Shown here piece after piece: positions 77-7,305 of a stretch of 7,305 nucleotides of DNA. The DNA is taken from contig JAQUEZ010000290.1 in assembly GCA_028684915.1 (NCBI GenBank), forward strand, positions 1 through 7,305, written 5' to 3'. Position numbers and translations under genes: made by a program. The stretch is from Desulfobulbus sp. (lineage in GTDB: Bacteria > Desulfobacterota > Desulfobulbia > Desulfobulbales > Desulfobulbaceae). Position 1 is the stretch's first letter, and each line of letters begins with the position of its first letter. The notes beneath the pieces were generated by a model. That model worked only from the letters and a program-made list of their open reading frames with translations. It did not search any database and had not been told where the DNA came from.

Positions 77-750
77 GCAGCCGCCATGGTGCGCAGATAG
101 TTGCTTACTCTTTTCTTGGTCGCCACTTTGGGCAGGCAAAGCGGCAGGAACGAACAGCTCTCGCAGCGGGCGTCATAGCGGGGCGGCGGCGTTACTCCTG
201 CCGCCAGCATGTCGTGTGCCGCGTCGGCCGTCCGAGCGACCGTCTCCCGCAAGGCCGGATCGAAAACAACGGCCGTCCGTCGCTTCTTTTCGCCGTAATA
301 CAAGGCACCTTCCGGCACAACGCAACCGAGCATTTCTTCCAGGCAGATGGCTTGGGCGCAGAGTTGCACCCGGTCGGAAGCGTCTTTTTTAGGCCGCCCA
401 CGCTTGTATTCCACCGGCAGCGGCCGCCACAAGCCGCCTTCGCAAAGATGAAACTCGACAATGTCGGCCCGGCCGGCCAACCCCAGCCGCAAGGAACGGA
501 TGGGCACGTCGAATTCCACCCGCAGCGTGCGCCGCGACTCGCGGCCGCTGGTGTGCACCCGCTCGTGGAGCACCCGGCCCTCGGCGGTCAGCCGGTTTTC
601 CAGCCACTGCTGTTCGATGTGGATCAGGGCGCACTGGCGCGGACAGAACAGGTAATGCTGCAGGGCGGAGATCATCACCAGATCGTCCTCGTCGTACAAC
701 CCCGGCAGCGACGATTGCTGGCCGGATTGTTCCAGGATGCGCTCAGTCAT
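73..750 (-). CDS. cas4: Cas4, RecB-like Fe-S exonuclease of the adaptation module
   Basis: This 225-residue protein is a Cas4 nuclease, which processes prespacers and helps set PAM choice and spacer orientation with Cas1-Cas2. The sequence shows an N-terminal FCPRQC block (C36 and C40), GRAD at 93-96, VEYKRG at 113-118 and QLCAQA at 129-134. These fit the RecB-type metal site, with D96, E114 and K116 as the core and Q129 near it. A C-terminal cysteine group (C196, C199, C205) would complete a four-cysteine iron-sulphur cluster with C36. I chose the ATG at 750 because GGAGGAAGGA lies just upstream (763-754). An in-frame ATG at 786 would add 12 residues but lies deeper inside the preceding gene. 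The start overlaps the end of rhuM-fic by 8 bases and the stop overlaps cas1. GC content is high, about 65-75% in sampled lines, unlike cas7 and cas8c. Confidence 0.93.
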
Positions 751-1783
751 GCGTCCTTCCTCCGTTGGGCAGTGTGGATTCGCCAAGCAGATGAATGATC
801 AGACGGATGAGCACATCTTTCTGGCTCGGGTCAGAGGCGGCAACCAGCAGCGCCAGGGCCACCAGCCCTTTGTTGTCGAAGCGGACCGTATCAACAAGAC
901 TGCTTTTCTGGAGGAAAAGAAGAAAGAGAAAGGAACCGATGCGCTTGTTGCCGTCGCTGAATGGGTGATCCTTGATCACGAAATAGAGCAGGTGGGCCGC
1001 TTTTTCCTCGATGCTCGGGTAGAGGTCCTCACCGCCAAAGGTTTGGTGGATTGCGCCGAGGATGCCAGCCAGGCTCTCGCCACGCTCGCGGCCGAAAAGG
1101 TCGGTGACCTCGCCCCTGGTGGCCAGATCATCACGCAGACAGGCAATGCCCCGGCGCACCACGGCCAGGTCAAAACCCACCGACTCCCGCCGGGTGAGCC
1201 CAGATGGCAGGGGCAGCCGATCTTCGTCATATTGGAGCAGCAATTGCCAGCTCAGGCCGTAACGCCGCACCAACTCCACCACAGCTAACCCGGTTGCATC
1301 CGCCAGTTGATGCTGCTCCAAGGTGGACGCCAGCAAATCGAGCACCCCGCGCAACTCGGCCACCCCCTGTTCCGCCAGCCGTCGCTGATTGAGGGCATAG
1401 CCCTTGATCAGATACTCCTTGAGCACCGACGAGGCCCAGATGCGGAACTGGGTGCCGCGTTTGGAGTTGACCCGATAGCCGACGGCAATGATAACGTCCA
1501 GATTGTAAAAATTGGTTTGGTAGGTTTTGCCATCCGCGGCAGTTTGTGCAAATTTTGCACAAACTGCCGTTCTGGTTAACTCTTCTGATTTGAAAACATT
1601 GTTAATATGCTTGGTTACGACACTGCGCTCCGTCTGAAAAAGAAAAGCCATCTGCGCTTGCGTTAACCAGACGGTTTCATTCCTCAGTTGGACATCCAGC
1701 CTTATTTGCCCGTCATCGGCCTGATAGAGGACGATGGCGCTGTGATCAGAAGGCGAGGTTTGCTGTTCTTGTGAGAACTCCAT
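743..1783 (-). CDS. RhuM-Fic/Doc fusion protein inserted in the cas operon
   Basis: The 346-residue product joins two known domains. Residues about 16-135 match the virulence RhuM family, with a winged-helix-like start (WLTQAQMAFLFQTERSVVTK at 39-58), NFYNLDVIIAVGYRVNSKRG at 91-110 and TQFRIWASSVLKEYLIKGYA at 111-130. Residues about 225-310 form a Fic/Doc domain with the active-site loop HPFSDGNKRIG at 273-283, including catalytic H273, D277, N279 and R281. Fic enzymes move AMP or other phosphate-containing groups onto proteins, and Doc phosphorylates EF-Tu. Here the K after N and the lack of a second Arg resemble Doc more than AMP-transferring Fic. No EG or EN pair exists anywhere in the protein, so the classical (S/T)xxxE(G/N) inhibitory motif is absent. 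The ATG at 1783 has GGAG at 1797-1794. The gene starts 40 bases after cas7 and overlaps cas4. It is not a core type I-C gene. Its target is unknown. Confidence 0.9.
   Translation of the reverse strand: MEFSQEQQTSPSDHSAIVLYQADDGQIRLDVQLRNETVWLTQAQMAFLFQTERSVVTKHINNVFKSEELTRTAVCAKFAQTAADGKTYQTNFYNLDVIIAVGYRVNSKRGTQFRIWASSVLKEYLIKGYALNQRRLAEQGVAELRGVLDLLASTLEQHQLADATGLAVVELVRRYGLSWQLLLQYDEDRLPLPSGLTRRESVGFDLAVVRRGIACLRDDLATRGEVTDLFGRERGESLAGILGAIHQTFGGEDLYPSIEEKAAHLLYFVIKDHPFSDGNKRIGSFLFLLFLQKSSLVDTVRFDNKGLVALALLVAASDPSQKDVLIRLIIHLLGESTLPNGGRTHD
754..763 (-). promoter_or_regulatory. Ribosome binding site of cas4
   Basis: The minus strand reads GGAGGAAGGA, with GGAGG ending 8 bases before the ATG at 750. 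The site lies inside the last codons of rhuM-fic. It decides the cas4 start and suggests that ribosomes ending rhuM-fic at 743 can restart on cas4. Confidence 0.7.
1538..1568. repeat. Perfect 15-bp inverted repeat inside rhuM-fic
   Basis: The arms are GGCAGTTTGTGCAAA (1538-1552) and TTTGCACAAACTGCC (1554-1568), separated by one base. The palindrome lies in the RhuM-domain part of the gene and encodes residues of the VCAKFAQTA segment. It could be an operator-like site, a hairpin in the mRNA, or a by-product of the protein sequence. No function is shown. Confidence 0.85.
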
Positions 1784-2686: not shown

Positions 2687-3079
2687 TCAATTCTCCTCGG
2701 TCGTGTTGGCGGTGGTATTTTTGCTCGTATAGAAATCCTTCATCCGTTGGTAATAGCCGATCATGAACAGTCCCTGGTCCTCCAGCGACATTGTTGGCGG
2801 AAAGTGAGCAAGATGCGCTACCGAATCCTGGATGGATTTTTCTAAATTGATGGCCCAACCCGTTTTCGCGGGGTCTTTGCGCAATTTTGCGATGTGATTG
2901 GCGGCATTTTTCAGCAACATGGGAAAGACCCTGGCTGGCGTTGCAGGCGCCGAGGCGAAAAAACGATCTTTCATAGTGGCTGTTGCTCCTGGAATTGCAT
3001 CTGCCTGGGCTTTCTCGAGAACGGCAAACAAGCCTCCAAGCAAATAAGGGACCTCTTTCCTGCTGGGGTCGTAATACAT
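2687..3079 (-). CDS. cas11c: Cas11c small subunit from an internal start in cas8c
   Basis: An in-frame ATG at 3079 (residue 457 of Cas8c) is preceded by GGAG at 3089-3086 with a 6-base spacing, which is a good internal ribosome binding site. It would give a 130-residue protein that starts MYYDPSRKEVPYLLGGLFAV and shares the Cas8c C-terminus. Type I-C systems are known to make Cas11c in this way, and two copies join Cascade along the belly. The size and position fit that precedent. A second in-frame ATG at 3091 is possible but overlaps the GGAG. I see the start signal directly; expression is inferred. Confidence 0.75.
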   Translation of the reverse strand: MYYDPSRKEVPYLLGGLFAVLEKAQADAIPGATATMKDRFFASAPATPARVFPMLLKNAANHIAKLRKDPAKTGWAINLEKSIQDSVAHLAHFPPTMSLEDQGLFMIGYYQRMKDFYTSKNTTANTTEEN

Positions 3080-4447
3080 AGAAATCTCCATTTGTTTATT
3101 ACGGACGAGAAAGGCTTTCAGCAAAGACGCCCGAAAATATCCGACTTCACGTTCGGCTCGAATACGACCTAATACCGCCGCAAGCAAACTCTGCGGATAC
3201 AAGCCGCCATTCAGCATGGCCTTGGTCATGCCGCCCGCAAGCACGGGCAAGACATTCTCACTCTTTCCAAGGGTCGCAGTCTGGCAGAGCAAGCGCCAAA
3301 GGGGAGGGAACTCCGGTTCGCTGTCGTACTGGCGGACTATCTCCAGATGACGAAAATGCTCCCCGATATTCTTCAACAAATCCCCCACGGTGCTTGCCAT
3401 CCAGAAACGGATGGATAAACGTGAGGCATTGGGGGCAAGCCCCAAAATATAAAAACGGACGGACTCATCTAATGCCGGCACAATATCAACTGCTCGTTTA
3501 CCGGAACGAATGTTATTTAGTAGATGCAATATTTTCCCGGCAGTTTGCTGGTCATCATCGGCCGCTATCGACTTAACGCGGCTTTCATCCGGAGCAAACA
3601 GGTCGGCAAACAACTCTTCGGCGACACTGCGGCATTCCGCCCAAAACACAACGGTCGTATCGCCGATCACCACCTTTTGGCGGCTATCAGTTGCCAAAAG
3701 TGCATTCAAGGCGGTGGCATAGTTAAAAGCCGCCTTCTCGCTTACCGGGGCGTTGATTGACTGCTCCTTGCCGTAGGATTCAAAAGCCGGAAGGTTAAAT
3801 GAAACGATGGAAGCGCCTGAAGATTGCGCACCGCGCACCCCTTTAATGGAAGGATGCAAGCGGGCAAGTGGTTGCTCTTCTTCACCTGAGACGAGACATT
3901 GCCCAGTTGTGGCAGCCTCACGTTGACCCAGGCACTGTTCCCATGCTCTACGCGCTGCCGCACGGTCGTGGATAAAACCCGGCGTACCACTCAAACGGAA
4001 AACCAGGTTTGCACCGCAGATGTCCGCCCAATTTGGCAGGGTGGTTATTGTCCGGAAATCGTGGTCGTAAAAAGAGAGAATTGCCTTGAGACCAGGGTCA
4101 TCAAACGCGCAGAAAGTTCGCAGCTGCTGGACAAAGGCCTTGTGACATTTATCCGTTCGCTCCTGCTTGCCCTTGTCATCCAGTCCGAGGACATAGCTGG
4201 TCGAATCCCAAAGAAAATTTGGTTTGATTCCGCTGGCTTTTTTCTCGGCTGCCGGCACGACCATTTTACGGGGTCGCAGTTGCTTGCCCTCCTGCAGCCG
4301 AAGGTCTTCCACATTCAACAATTCCCCATTGCTATCAAGGATAAGAGCAAACGAGATGTTCTCCACACTGGCGCCATAGGCGGGGATTGCAGCATCAGGC
4401 TCCGCCGCTTTGCGTTCATAATAGCGGTTCAATTCCTGAAGAATCAT
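2687..4447 (-). CDS. cas8c: Cas8c (Csd1), large subunit of type I-C Cascade
   Basis: The 586-residue product is Csd1/Cas8c, the large subunit that recognises the PAM and helps open target DNA. It begins MILQELNRYYERKAA, as is usual for the family. The strongest family block runs from CLVSG at 184-188 through LHPSIKGVRG at 197-206, SSGASIVSFNLPAFESYG at 209-226 and NYATALNALL at 242-251, then VVFWAE near 266-271. The C-terminal 130 residues are helical and correspond to the small subunit Cas11c, which has its own internal start. The ATG at 4447 overlaps the cas5c stop as ATGA, and the stop lies 2 bases before cas7. Length is normal and no frameshift is seen. The position between cas5c and cas7 is the standard type I-C order. 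Confidence 0.95.
   Translation of the reverse strand: MILQELNRYYERKAAEPDAAIPAYGASVENISFALILDSNGELLNVEDLRLQEGKQLRPRKMVVPAAEKKASGIKPNFLWDSTSYVLGLDDKGKQERTDKCHKAFVQQLRTFCAFDDPGLKAILSFYDHDFRTITTLPNWADICGANLVFRLSGTPGFIHDRAAARRAWEQCLGQREAATTGQCLVSGEEEQPLARLHPSIKGVRGAQSSGASIVSFNLPAFESYGKEQSINAPVSEKAAFNYATALNALLATDSRQKVVIGDTTVVFWAECRSVAEELFADLFAPDESRVKSIAADDDQQTAGKILHLLNNIRSGKRAVDIVPALDESVRFYILGLAPNASRLSIRFWMASTVGDLLKNIGEHFRHLEIVRQYDSEPEFPPLWRLLCQTATLGKSENVLPVLAGGMTKAMLNGGLYPQSLLAAVLGRIRAEREVGYFRASLLKAFLVRNKQMEISMYYDPSRKEVPYLLGGLFAVLEKAQADAIPGATATMKDRFFASAPATPARVFPMLLKNAANHIAKLRKDPAKTGWAINLEKSIQDSVAHLAHFPPTMSLEDQGLFMIGYYQRMKDFYTSKNTTANTTEEN
2693..2698 (-). promoter_or_regulatory. Ribosome binding site of cas7
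   Basis: GAGGAG on the minus strand, 8 bases before the ATG at 2684 and inside the last codons of cas8c. It fixes the cas7 start against a longer in-frame alternative. Confidence 0.75.
3086..3089 (-). promoter_or_regulatory. Internal ribosome binding site for cas11c
   Basis: GGAG on the minus strand, followed by ATTTCT and then ATG at 3079. It lies in the coding sequence of cas8c at the border of the small-subunit region. Confidence 0.6.
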
Positions 4448-5109
4448 GACCGCACCTCCGACGACCGGGGCGCAGGCGGGGTGATGATGCCGTCCTGCAT
4501 GGTGGCCTTAAAAAAGAGTGGTTTCATGCCGTTGGCAAAATCGATATCCAGCAGCATGTATCCCAACTCTTTTGTTTCCCCCTTGTAGCAAGAGATCGGT
4601 AACTCGCCCTCTAACAGCTCAAAAAAAGAAGGGAATTCACGGCAGCCAAAACAAGGCTGGTGGAAAAATTGCCCGGTGCGAGCGCGCCGGTTGAAAATAT
4701 CAAGGTGTTTGCCCTCATTCTCCCCCGGCCCCGCTTTCTCTGTCAGTTCAAAATGGGCTTCAATCACATAGTCCACTTGACGAAGCAAAGTTGTGGCTCG
4801 CTGTTGCCGGTTATCCCCCTCATCCACCAAATAAAACAGCGATTTGTTCTCGCGCATCACCGTTGTCGGATTGGGCTTGGGAATTTTTGACTTCACTTCG
4901 TTACGACGAACATTGTCGAATCGAATAGGGTTGAGCACATGAATCCTGTCCACCACCCAACGAATGGCCGGCTTCCAGTGGATTGCCTCTAAAATCCCCC
5001 GGGCGGCAGAAGGCGTCATCACGTCATACGACACCCGCTCCACTTTCATTTCCGGCCTGGAGAAACAAGCGTAGTCACCCCAGACACGAAGTTTAACTCC
5101 ATACCCCAT
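4444..5109 (-). CDS. cas5c: Cas5c (Cas5d), crRNA-processing endoribonuclease and Cascade subunit
   Basis: Type I-C has no Cas6, and Cas5c cuts pre-crRNA at the base of the repeat stem and then holds the 5' handle. The 221-residue protein shows the family start MGYGVKLRVWGDYACFSRPE, then MTPSAARGILEAIHWKPAIR at 31-50, NEGKH at 131-135 and CFGCREFPSF at 153-162. In Bacillus halodurans Cas5d the catalytic residues are Y46, K116 and H117. Here K134 and H135 fit the last two, but the Tyr position holds H44 (IHWKP instead of IYWKP). I chose the ATG at 5109 because AAGGAGG lies at 5123-5117, 7 bases away. A GTG at 5115 would sit directly on that site. The stop overlaps the cas8c ATG. It is the first gene after the 290-base gap and probably has its own promoter. 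Confidence 0.95.
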   Translation of the reverse strand: MGYGVKLRVWGDYACFSRPEMKVERVSYDVMTPSAARGILEAIHWKPAIRWVVDRIHVLNPIRFDNVRRNEVKSKIPKPNPTTVMRENKSLFYLVDEGDNRQQRATTLLRQVDYVIEAHFELTEKAGPGENEGKHLDIFNRRARTGQFFHQPCFGCREFPSFFELLEGELPISCYKGETKELGYMLLDIDFANGMKPLFFKATMQDGIITPPAPRSSEVRS

Positions 5110-5116
5110 AGGCACA

Positions 5117-5123
5117 CCTCCTT
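5117..5123 (-). promoter_or_regulatory. Ribosome binding site of cas5c
   Basis: AAGGAGG on the minus strand, a near-ideal site 7 bases before the ATG at 5109. It decides this start against the GTG at 5115. Confidence 0.8.
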
Positions 5124-5137
5124 GTGAAGAGGATTCA

Positions 5138-5166
5138 TGGATAGTTGCCTGTCAGGCAACTATCCA
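5138..5166. repeat. Perfect 14-bp palindrome / stem-loop before cas5c
   Basis: The arms TGGATAGTTGCCTG (5138-5151) and CAGGCAACTATCCA (5153-5166) pair perfectly around one base. It begins at about position 30 of the pseudo-spacer and ends 28 bases before the cas5c ATG. No T-run follows on either strand, so it is not a typical intrinsic terminator. It may bound or stabilise the 3' end of the crRNA-like RNA, or be an operator for a DNA-binding regulator. Confidence 0.85.
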
Positions 5167-5195
5167 ATAATAAACGACAAATTGCACCAGCTACT

Positions 5196-5227
5196 ATTTC
5201 AATCCGCATCCCCGTGTGGGGGACGAC
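5196..5227 (-). CRISPR. Solitary degenerate type I-C repeat (pseudo-repeat)
   Basis: On the minus strand these 32 bases begin GTCGTCCCCCACACGGGG and end GCGGATTGAAAT. The length and both ends match the type I-C repeat family, whose usual form starts GTCGC and ends GATTGAAAC. A 7-bp stem remains (CGTCCCC with GGGGATG, one G-U pair, loop CACAC), followed by an intact-looking 5' handle. The final C is changed to T. No second copy is found within a spacer length on either side, so this is not a normal array. The stem and handle should still be a substrate for Cas5c. Confidence 0.85.
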
Positions 5228-5342
5228 CACAAACAACACCTTTGCCCAAGGGGGTACTTCCCCGGCAATTCCACGGTGACCGACGACAACACAGCGTGTT
5301 TATCGTCTCGTCACACAGCATGTCCTTGAGGAGATCATACAT
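5199..5342 (-). CDS. Possible 47-codon leader ORF, unrecognised
   Basis: The ORF starts MYDLLKDMLCDETINTLCCR and ends inside the pseudo-repeat. It lies in the predicted leader of the cas5c transcript. I do not recognise it and see no good ribosome binding site before the ATG at 5342. The second Met (5321) has AAGGA only one base away, which is too close. Another frame holds a four-codon mini-ORF from GTG at 5314 (GTG ACG AGA CGA TAA) placed 8 bases after that AAGGA. The region may be non-coding leader; neither ORF is well supported. Confidence 0.15.
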   Translation of the reverse strand: MYDLLKDMLCDETINTLCCRRSPWNCRGSTPLGKGVVCGRPPHGDAD

Positions 5343-5365
5343 GTGCTGATAGTCGCCGCAAAATT

Positions 5366-5394
5366 ATTTTAGTAGATGGTGTATTTTTTCTAAA
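5366..5394 (-). promoter_or_regulatory. Predicted promoter of cas5c-cas8c-cas7 operon
   Basis: The minus strand has a -35 element TTTAGA (5394-5389), a 17-base spacer, and a -10 element TAAAAT (5371-5366), with A/T-rich sequence upstream that could act as an UP element. It begins 5 bases after the cas3 stop and reads toward cas5c, with a predicted start near 5359 and a leader of about 250 bases. The spacing is ideal and each hexamer differs little from the sigma70 consensus. The promoter would serve cas5c, cas8c, cas7 and possibly rhuM-fic, cas4 and cas1. It coincides with the guide match described next. Confidence 0.6.
5371..5390 (+). promoter_or_regulatory. Predicted Cascade target site matched by the crRNA-like guide
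   Basis: The plus strand reads AGTAGATGGTGTATTTTTTC, against the guide AGTAGCTGGTGCAATTTGTC. Mismatches fall at positions 6, 12, 14 and 18. Bases 6, 12 and 18 are flipped out and unread in type I Cascade, so 16 of the 17 read positions match. The three bases on the PAM side (5368-5370) are TTT, close to the usual type I-C TTC. Cascade bound here would cover the -10 and -35 elements. Pairing stops being good beyond position 20, which fits binding without Cas3 cleavage. Confidence 0.7.
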
Positions 5395-5399
5395 ATTTT

Positions 5400-7305
5400 T
5401 TATCTGCAAAAAAACTCAGGATCCCAAAGCTCGGCCATATCTTCTCGAAATCCCAAGCGTGCATCGTAGGCGGCGGCATTCAACATGATCGGGAAAACAT
5501 CACGAACCATCTCAATCACCCCTTTTTGTTGCAAGCGAAACAGCACGTTGCTCCGCACCACCACCGCATAGCGTTGCAGTTTTCGCCCTATCGCCTGGGG
5601 AAACTGCGCGTGTCGCAATTGCTCAACCAATCGTTGCACCTCGTCTTTGTCTTCGGGGAGCCCCGGCATAATCACGCCAACACCCTCGTCTTCAATGAGG
5701 CGGAAATCCTTGGCCATCTCCTGAAACGGCACGATCAGTTCTGAATGCAGGCTGGGATTCGTTCGCTTGACAATGTCTTTTGCATCCAAACTTTCCACGT
5801 CGTACAGCAATTCGAAATAACGTTGCATCGGAACGAGTTCCAAGCAGTCACCCGAGGGAAATAATCGCAGAGTTTCCTGGGCACGCGAGATGCGACGCCG
5901 TAACCAAGGCATGGCGGGCAGTTCTTCCGGTTCATACACATACACCAGACCAAAATCCGACAGCCCTTCACGATTGCACCGCCCGGCTGCCTGGGCAATG
6001 GAATCGAGGCCTGCCATGGCCCGGTAAACAACCGGGAAGTCGAGATCGACACCGGCCTCAACCAAGGAGGTAGAGACCACCCGGCACGGCAACCCATCCG
6101 CAAGCCGCTGCCTGATGACACCAAGTACACGCAACCTATGCACCGGGTACATGTTCGTTGACAGGTGGAATGTGCCCTCGGTTTCTCTCATAATTGCAAC
6201 TGCCTGTTGCGCCTGTTTTTTTGTCGAGACAACGCAAAGCACCTGGGGGGGGCCGTCGAGCTGCCGAGCAAGTTCATCGTTGCTCAAATTGCCGATAAGT
6301 TCGACACGAACCCTTTTGAGCTCCGCAAACAATTGATTAGGATCATCAACAATCTCTTTGGTCTCTGGGAGTTGTAAACGCTTCAGGTTCGTATCATCCA
6401 ACGCTGGCTGAGTGGCGGTGCATAACACGACCGTGCACCGGTAATGAGCGACCAATTCGCGCAACGCGAGGAGGCAAGGTTGAAGAAATTCGGTAGGAAT
6501 CGCCTGGGCCTCGTCAAGGACGATCACGCTCCCGGCGATATTGTGCAGTTTGCGACAACGTGACGGTTTATTGCTATATAATGACTCAAAAAATTGCACA
6601 TTAGTGGTCACCACCACCGGCGCGGCCCAGTTCTCGGTCGCAAGTCCCCGCCACTTGTTGTACATGACCGCATCGTCGTCCTCCCGAGCATGGTAATTGC
6701 AGTGGTGCTCAAGCACGTTGGCTCCACCAAGGGCCTGGCGGAACACTTCGGCGTTTTGCTCGATGATTGAAGTAAAGGGGATGGCATAAATTACCCGCGA
6801 AAGGCCGTGCGTTTCCGCATGCTCCAAGGCAAAGGCCAGCGAAGAAAGTGTTTTTCCGCCGCCAGTCGGTACAGTTAACGAGTAGAATCCTTGGGCTTCT
6901 CTCGCTTGCTCAATACACCGCGCCAAAACCCTCTGCCGCGCAGCGTTCACCTTTCCCAGTTCTGCCGATGCCTGTTTTTGAGAAATGAAGGACTGTAAAG
7001 AACTCCTCAGATTACCAAAATTATTCTGCTGTAATGCCCGCCGCAGTGCTGATTTGTCAGGGTTACAAAAGGCTTCGGTGTCGAGGAAATCGGCGTCCAC
7101 CAGACAGGAGAACAGCATGCGGGTAAAAAAAGCCAGATTGAACATGGACCATTCTCTTTCTAATTGAAAAGGAAAGAGTAATGGTTTGGCACCGCCGAGT
7201 TCCGGCAATATTTCGGTATTTGTAATTTCTTTGCGTAATCGATGGTGCAGCTGTCCTTCCTGAACACCGCCATCGGGCAATCCACCATGATGTCCACAGA
7301 TCACA
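5400..7305 (-). CDS. cas3: Cas3 nuclease-helicase, 5' end outside the window
   Basis: Cas3 is recruited by target-bound Cascade, nicks the displaced strand with its HD nuclease and degrades DNA as a 3'-5' helicase. About 635 residues are visible, starting within the HD domain at ICGHHGGLPDGG. A further HD-domain aspartate block, CLVDADFLDTE, lies near residues 67-77 of the visible part. The superfamily 2 helicase motifs follow in order: Walker A VPTGGGKT at 145-152, motif Ia region YAIPFTSIIEQNAEVF, DEAQ at 264-267, CTATQP (motif III) near 295-300, VSTSLVEAGVDLDFPVVYRA, and QAAGRCNREG (motif VI). The C-terminal domain appears complete, with TAA at 5402-5400. The frame stays open to the window edge, so the apparent first codon (GTG at 7304) is internal and the true start is upstream. 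Unlike the tight spacing of the other cas genes, 290 bases separate it from cas5c. Confidence 0.95.
   Translation of the reverse strand, partial: VICGHHGGLPDGGVQEGQLHHRLRKEITNTEILPELGGAKPLLFPFQLEREWSMFNLAFFTRMLFSCLVDADFLDTEAFCNPDKSALRRALQQNNFGNLRSSLQSFISQKQASAELGKVNAARQRVLARCIEQAREAQGFYSLTVPTGGGKTLSSLAFALEHAETHGLSRVIYAIPFTSIIEQNAEVFRQALGGANVLEHHCNYHAREDDDAVMYNKWRGLATENWAAPVVVTTNVQFFESLYSNKPSRCRKLHNIAGSVIVLDEAQAIPTEFLQPCLLALRELVAHYRCTVVLCTATQPALDDTNLKRLQLPETKEIVDDPNQLFAELKRVRVELIGNLSNDELARQLDGPPQVLCVVSTKKQAQQAVAIMRETEGTFHLSTNMYPVHRLRVLGVIRQRLADGLPCRVVSTSLVEAGVDLDFPVVYRAMAGLDSIAQAAGRCNREGLSDFGLVYVYEPEELPAMPWLRRRISRAQETLRLFPSGDCLELVPMQRYFELLYDVESLDAKDIVKRTNPSLHSELIVPFQEMAKDFRLIEDEGVGVIMPGLPEDKDEVQRLVEQLRHAQFPQAIGRKLQRYAVVVRSNVLFRLQQKGVIEMVRDVFPIMLNAAAYDARLGFREDMAELWDPEFFCR

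Follow-up and report, generated by a model that had tools for sequence, protein, structure and literature searches.

Genetic organisation of the locus

The window, i.e. the whole stretch of 7,305 nucleotides analysed here, encodes on its minus strand a cas3 gene (5400-7304, cut by the window end), followed after a gap of 284 nt by cas5c (4444-5109; PF09704), cas8c, also named csd1 (2687-4447; PF09709), cas7 (1824-2684; PF05107), a RhuM/Fic-type gene and cas4. The presence of cas3, cas5c, cas8c, cas7 and cas4 in the window assigns the locus to type I-C; no cas1, cas2 or CRISPR array was found within the 7,305 nt. Cas5c shares 99% identity with the Cas5c of a Desulfobulbus MAG, and its gene, whose start was read from the sequence together with a Shine-Dalgarno motif (AAGGAGGTG, 5123-5115, minus strand), is the first of a putatively autoregulated operon. 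The RhuM/Fic (Doc-like) gene (743-1783, minus strand) lies between cas7 and cas4, is apparently a passenger in the type I-C operon and contains a perfect 16-bp inverted repeat (1537-1569).

On the operon strand, the gap between cas3 and cas5c contains in succession a target site (5371-5390), which begins about 10 nt after the cas3 stop, a pseudo-repeat, a guide, a 13-bp hairpin and the Shine-Dalgarno motif of cas5c. The pseudo-repeat (5196-5227, minus strand; GTCGTCCCCCACACGGGGATGCGGATTGAAAT) was reported in the preliminary description as a lone degenerate type I-C repeat, and reading of the window sequence bears this out: it has a 7-bp stem (CGUCCCC/GGGGAUG) and a handle ending in GGAUUGAAAU. 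The genome of the nearest relative (locus L089) encodes, on the same contig, an array of 22 repeats whose copies end in GGGGGCGTGGATTGAAAC, whereas its lone copy ends in GGGGATGCGGATTGAAAT; compared with L089, the stem of the window repeat has a G-U in place of an A-U pair. The guide, or pseudo-spacer, of about 29 nt (5167-5195, minus strand) begins with AGTAGCTGGTGCAATTTGTC at 5195 and covaries with its target in relatives (see below). The 3' hairpin (5138-5166, minus strand), identified as an inverted repeat and by folding, is possibly the remnant of a second repeat, since a clear second repeat occupies its place in some relatives, e.g. L013 and L120. The centroid fold shows both the 7-bp stem of the repeat and the 3' hairpin; in the minimum-energy fold only the 3' hairpin is retained (z -3.09). 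An Rfam search gave three matches, all far under the gathering scores. Searches with the region gave no match in phages and only weak matches, to three records, in plasmids; one of these is a Leptolinea plasmid matched at seven places, which are probably array repeats. An antisense frame of 70 codons (plus strand, 5137-5349) was set aside, no counterpart being listed for L089.

Target site and predicted promoters

The target, or protospacer (5371-5390, plus strand; AGTAGATGGTGTATTTTTTC), matches guide bases 1 to 20 at 16 of 20 positions and is flanked by a TTT (5368-5370) on the PAM side; the mismatches fall at guide bases 6, 12, 14 and 18. All of this can be read directly from the window and agrees with the preliminary description. 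For comparisons, 14 guide positions were scored, with bases 6, 12 and 17 onward left unscored. On this scale the target scores 13/14 and is the only site in the window above 10/14 besides the guide itself; when the guide was shuffled 3000 times, no version scored 16/20 at any place in the gap. TTT is accepted as a type I-C PAM in Neisseria lactamica, where TTT and TTC are both used (PMC10865793). The nearest relative has TTC instead, so binding in the window may be weaker.

The same description placed the target on a predicted promoter, TTTAGA-17-TAAAAT (5366-5394, minus strand). The scan does find this pair (9/12), which overlaps the target, and a comparable pair overlaps the site in L090 (TAGAAA-17-AATAAT, 9/12), but none does in the nearest relative. 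An alternative pair lies just downstream of the site, at the same place, in the window and its two closest loci, namely TTGCGG-TATGAT in the window (8/12), TTGACG-TATGCT in L089 (9/12) and TTGAAT-CATAAT in L090 (9/12). The window version of this second predicted promoter (5334-5361, minus strand; -35 at 5361-5356, 16 nt, -10 at 5339-5334) starts 6 nt past the PAM, and its score is below the scan threshold. Either pair may be the promoter, and neither candidate is strong. Elsewhere, TTGACG begins 7 nt past the PAM in L189 and L192, and the site overlaps a strong TTGACA in L013 and L120. Among the 38 matched loci described below, 4 had no hexamer pair in the scan, and the position of the best -35 ranged from -73 to +40 nt relative to the site edge; because such calls are noisy, no single geometry of site and promoter is claimed. 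Transcription of cas5c could also come from read-through originating within or upstream of cas3. No terminator-like site was found in 5000-5500, i.e. none ahead of cas5c.

Occurrence of the module in related type I-C loci

Relatives were collected with an alignment of 24 Cas5c sequences as query, from which the best 80 of 586 loci were kept, together with 7 loci from viral contigs. Class searches added further loci, at most 30 per search; a Cas5 match, not restricted to type I-C, was present in 65 of 257, 36 of 369, 55 of 277 and 15 of 385 genomes. The deduplicated set comprises 181 loci; the gap between cas3 and cas5c is shorter than 100 nt in 114 of them and 100-1200 nt long in 65, and two belong to neither group.

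In a blind count, one repeat per locus was picked before any match was inspected, by a sense-strand core with at most two mismatches to GTGGATTGAAAC, and the PAM was not used. Such a core is present in 36 of 54 gaps of 120-1100 nt in the set used for this count. In 31 of these 36 loci the best guide match reaches at least 10/14 and lies beside TTC (28 loci) or TTT (3 loci). The five others include L068, whose guide best matches another copy of itself and next a site scoring 13/14 with TTC, and L132, in which the module is on the opposite strand. Over the 31 loci, mismatch rates are 0-0.10 at bases 1-5, 0.74 at base 6, 0-0.16 at bases 7-11, 0.71 at base 12, 0.10-0.23 at bases 13-17, 0.81 at base 18, 0.58 at base 19 and 0.74 at base 20. 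Base 17 is still mostly paired (0.19), and near-random rates are seen at bases 6, 12, 18 and 20. Such a profile, with a period of six and pairing up to about base 17, is characteristic of type I Cascade; the relatives agree with the Cascade pattern previously proposed from the window mismatches at 6, 12 and 18. Cognate pairs of guide and site score 12.7/14 on average, versus 4.5/14 for non-cognate pairs, of which 10 of 930 reach at least 12/14, some of the loci being related.

A wider count covered all 65 gaps on both strands, with repeats of up to three mismatches and with sites beside TTC or TTT only, so that its PAM counts follow from its design and the blind count of PAMs is that of the 36 loci. 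A match of at least 11/14 was found in 38 of the 65 gaps, 35 modules being oriented in the cas direction and three inverted (L040, L132 and L199). Under the same criteria 10 of 3612 mock guides reached at least 11/14, a figure that includes mocks able to lie on the real target. Among 2107 mocks kept off the real target, one reached 12/14 and 30 reached 10/14 beside TTC or TTT, and 10 reached 13/14 with any PAM. The remaining 27 gaps gave no match of at least 11/14 beside TTC or TTT; they include L005 and L028, both at 10/14 with TTC, as well as L198 and L200, and they weigh against the reading proposed below for the window. The repeats of the 38 matched modules have stems of at least 5 bp in 28 cases and none, by the rule used, in 4, and 33 distinct stems occur among the matched modules with stems of at least 4 bp.

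Two gap arrangements were observed besides. L198 and L200 carry inverted modules with a perfect 14/14 match and GTC/GCC at the place of the PAM, perhaps a variant with a different PAM. In the L005 gap a short spacer separates two repeats, and there is a long perfect hairpin in which CCTCC faces GGAGG and which may mask a ribosome-binding site.

Guide and site covary, as the preliminary description had predicted for bases 1-5 and 7-11. Comparison of similar guides, in 40 pairs of loci, showed a difference in guide or site at 141 of these seed positions, of which 114 are paired in both loci, both sides having changed; this proportion is biased upward because the loci were selected for matching. 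Positions 6 and 12 differ 53 times in the same pairs and are paired in both loci only once. The 40 pairs are not independent, the loci having been chosen for their match at the scored positions with L028 added by hand at 10/14. The informative part of the covariation is that similar guides have diverged, each still fitting its own site. Between the window and L089, guide base 2 is changed (A for G) and the site identically, while site base 6 differs freely; between the window and L090, co-changes occur at seed positions 1, 2, 9 and 11.

Small open reading frames next to the target site

The device is widespread in type I-C loci, and in many relatives it is accompanied by a micropeptide or another small ORF. 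In nine relatives, assigned by title or class to the Desulfobulbaceae and the kin of Desulfuromonas (L003, L005, L007, L009, L090, L150, L154, L163 and L166), an intact ORF comes after the site. It has 24 codons, except in L150 with 30, and in most of the loci a good Shine-Dalgarno motif precedes it. Its product follows the rough pattern MRxRxRVxxFGRxFxxxExxLEPP-stop, ending in EPP in eight loci and in DPP in L090; the last codon is CCA in all nine, whereas the other proline codon is variable. Synonymous differences exceed non-synonymous ones in 36 of 36 pairs (pS 0.44-0.87, pN 0.12-0.49), and the peptide itself therefore seems to be selected. A similar peptide of 26 residues, ending in EPI, is encoded by the inverted module of L040. 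Several other loci, mostly gammaproteobacterial, have ORFs of 50-62 residues whose products appear membrane-spanning by eye (L013, L023, L036, L069 and L120). No match over the cut-offs was obtained for eight small proteins of the modules in Pfam, or for six proteins (five of modules and the devI-like one described below) in NCBIfam, and a search with the membrane-like protein of L069 (54 aa) recovered only itself. By likeness to CreTA and CrePA, these guarded small ORFs may encode toxins. A Pro-Pro-stop ending is reminiscent of termination stalling, and the 24-aa peptide might conceivably be a toxin that stalls ribosomes or else a leader peptide comparable to TnaC.

The peptide ORF is broken in L156 and L161. 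No such ORF was recognised in L004, L176, L189, L190, L192, L089 or the window, and the last two contain no intact ORF related to the 24-aa one; in all these ORF-less loci guide and site still match at 11 to 14 of the 14 scored positions. A short out-of-frame stretch of the window faintly resembles the peptide, a likeness too weak for it to be claimed as a relic.

In three loci with long gaps (L045, L052 and L068; 859-1035 nt), guide and site are followed by opposite-strand genes that look HicA/HicB-like by eye, a possible Cascade-linked toxin-antitoxin cargo.

A comparable arrangement in Myxococcus-type dev loci

Myxococcus-type dev loci were reached while a precedent for type I-C autoregulation was being sought, by searching the class to which the genome of L027 belongs. 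TIGR02586 was not found in the single genome of L027; the devS family was matched in 17 of 147 genomes of that class, 13 of them over the cut-off, and six upstream regions were fetched. Three of the six (G1411, G1397 and G1394) show a devI-like frame, then a repeat-like element, then a guide, located at 2190-2630 of L214 and in the same region of L218 and L219 (turned to the dev strand); the other three regions contain none of this cassette. The frame has 40 codons from a GTG in G1411 and G1397, its start being unclear in G1394, and we take it to be devI from its position and length. The repeat-like element ends in GTGTTGAGCAA, and the array repeats end in GCGTTGAGCAC in four of the four arrays fetched. 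A second repeat-like element scores 23/36 in G1411; at the same place in G1397 the score is 21/36, no better than chance windows. The guide matches a site just ahead of the frame, beside ATG, at 15, 16 and 15 of its first 17 bases in G1411, G1397 and G1394, respectively; the next best sites score 10-12, and none of 1000 shuffles reached 15 in any of the three. Mismatches occur at bases 6 and/or 9, and base 18 differs yet is paired in G1397 (C/C) and G1394 (G/G).

In Myxococcus xanthus, the Cas8-Cas7-Cas5 proteins (DevTRS) repress the dev transcript, and one review describes the mechanism of this autorepression as unknown, with matching spacers seemingly absent (PMC8616872). The devI product inhibits sporulation, and another review invokes a distinct antisense RNA (PMC8730458). 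Judging from the cassettes, a crRNA-like guide may account for the repression of devI by DevTRS, and they turn this open question into a direct test.

Proposed function and alternative explanations

Anatomy, PAM, pairing pattern and covariation are observed in the sequences, and we infer from them how the window element would be transcribed, processed and bound to its site, and how repression and feedback would follow. The segment 5227-5138 of the minus strand would be a crRNA-like gene in the 5' leader of cas5c-cas8c-cas7, whose transcript Cas5c would cut into a crRNA-like RNA. Cascade loaded with this RNA would bind 5371-5390 by means of roughly the first 17 bases of the guide, of which 14 match, and would cover or crowd the promoter, whichever candidate is used. 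Transcription of the guide and of Cascade's own subunits would then fall, without cleavage by Cas3. As no terminator-like site precedes cas5c and no toxin ORF is recognisable, control of cas5c-cas8c-cas7 by their own complex is the simplest function left. The window element is probably a type I-C CreR-like autorepressor descended from a CreTA-like module that lost its ORF, the ancestor having presumably comprised a promoter, a micropeptide ORF and a guide. The layout of CreR/CreA-type regulators initially proposed holds in that a guide suited to partial pairing by Cascade covaries with a site at the predicted promoter region of these genes. It needs amending for the wider family, which the small ORFs of many relatives and the three inverted modules mark as largely CreTA/CrePA-like, the window being in appearance a toxin-less, CreR-like derivative.

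A full CreTA could instead have been retained, with an RNA toxin or diverged peptide encoded within 5333-5228 and expressed from the promoter, and with the guide acting as an antitoxin through which the host comes to depend on Cascade. The nine relatives with an intact peptide ORF at the same place speak for this, as does a published mini-ORF of type I-F in the cas3-csy1 gap, which is an RNA toxin (PMC10097628). The window itself offers a 47-codon frame from 5342 and, nearer the repeat, TTG/GTG starts with an AGGTG motif. However, the 47-codon frame has no clear Shine-Dalgarno motif and L089 lacks much of that region, while the frames starting at TTG/GTG enter the repeat or cross the guide, and none of these frames resembles the peptide family; we regard a retained toxin as unlikely. 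A decaying relic, in which the toxin was lost recently and the match of guide and site awaits drift, would agree with the absence or disruption of the ORF in the window, L089, L156 and L161 and with TTT instead of TTC in the window; it is rendered rather improbable by the co-change at position 2 between the window and L089 and by the pairing kept in the other ORF-less loci.

Lone degenerate repeats can also be array debris, but an ordinary array leftover or a chance match is ruled out, for practical purposes entirely, by the shuffles, the mock guides, the blind count, in which 31 of 36 loci have a match beside TTC or TTT, and the covariation, which contradicts it. Lastly, the guide might activate or fine-tune transcription instead of repressing it, given that a good -35 begins 1-12 nt past the PAM in several loci; the overlap with TTGACA in L013 and L120 argues against this very improbable role, and we know of no Cascade activator of this kind.

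Beyond the autorepressor reading of the window, we tentatively envisage, with somewhat less than even confidence, a family of modules repressed by type I-C Cascade. Their cargo would originally have been, in the Desulfobacterota-type loci at any rate, a 24-residue peptide ending in Glu/Asp-Pro-Pro-stop, perhaps toxic via termination stalling. Repeated loss of the peptide would have given rise to cas autorepressors such as the one proposed for the window, and Myxococcus devI with its guide would be a parallel case in another subtype. If the proposal for the window is true, RNA-guided self-regulation extends to type I-C, a subtype without Cas6, and a route from addiction module to autoregulator becomes apparent; cas genes, or a possibly toxic peptide, would be derepressed whenever Cascade is lost or inhibited, which bears on the biology of anti-CRISPRs.

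Comparison with known systems

Type I-C is among the commonest CRISPR subtypes (PMC7684278), and a type I-C CRISPRi spacer placed over the -10 of a Neisseria promoter lowers expression (PMC10865793). Two reviews describe CreTA as clarified only for type I-B, in passages that link none of CreR, CreTA and CrePA to type I-C (PMC13131331, PMC12737573). Our literature search found no report for type I-C; Shmakov 2023, Liu 2023, Shu 2025 and Rajagopalan 2017 lay outside its coverage, and no priority is claimed. Shmakov et al. (2023) reportedly made a systematic prediction of crRNA-like standalone repeats and mini-arrays, mostly of type I, with targets in the promoters of cas or cargo genes.

The CreR regulators of types I-B, I-E and V-A are crRNA-like RNAs that partially match a cas promoter and mediate an autorepression sensing crRNA and anti-CRISPRs (PMC13131331, PMC12737573). 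The window shares with them a crRNA-like gene within a cas locus, composed of a guide preceded by a degenerate repeat, and a PAM-flanked, partial match that is conserved by covariation and lies at a predicted cas promoter. It differs in being of type I-C, with Cas5c replacing Cas6, and in that the guide lies in the leader of the very operon it should repress.

In CreTA and CrePA a guide lies between degenerate repeats and matches a small gene's promoter, an arrangement that the module resembles, and the Acinetobacter type I-F CreTA lies in the equivalent gap, between cas3 and csy1; the mini-ORF of that system is toxic as RNA and not as peptide (PMC10097628), which calls for caution in reading the 24-aa peptide as a toxin. 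Two degenerate repeats are usual in creA genes (PMC8501985), whereas in the window only pseudo-repeat 1 is clear and the second element is reduced to the 13-bp hairpin. A toxin gene under the targeted promoter is a further feature of CreTA and CrePA, and no protein toxin ORF is recognisable in the window; the putative cargo of the relatives is the 24-aa Pro-Pro peptide or small membrane-like proteins, unlike the known CreT or the KilA-N CreP. Finally, autoregulation by Cascade proteins has been described for DevTRS of M. xanthus, whose repeat family is different from that of the window.
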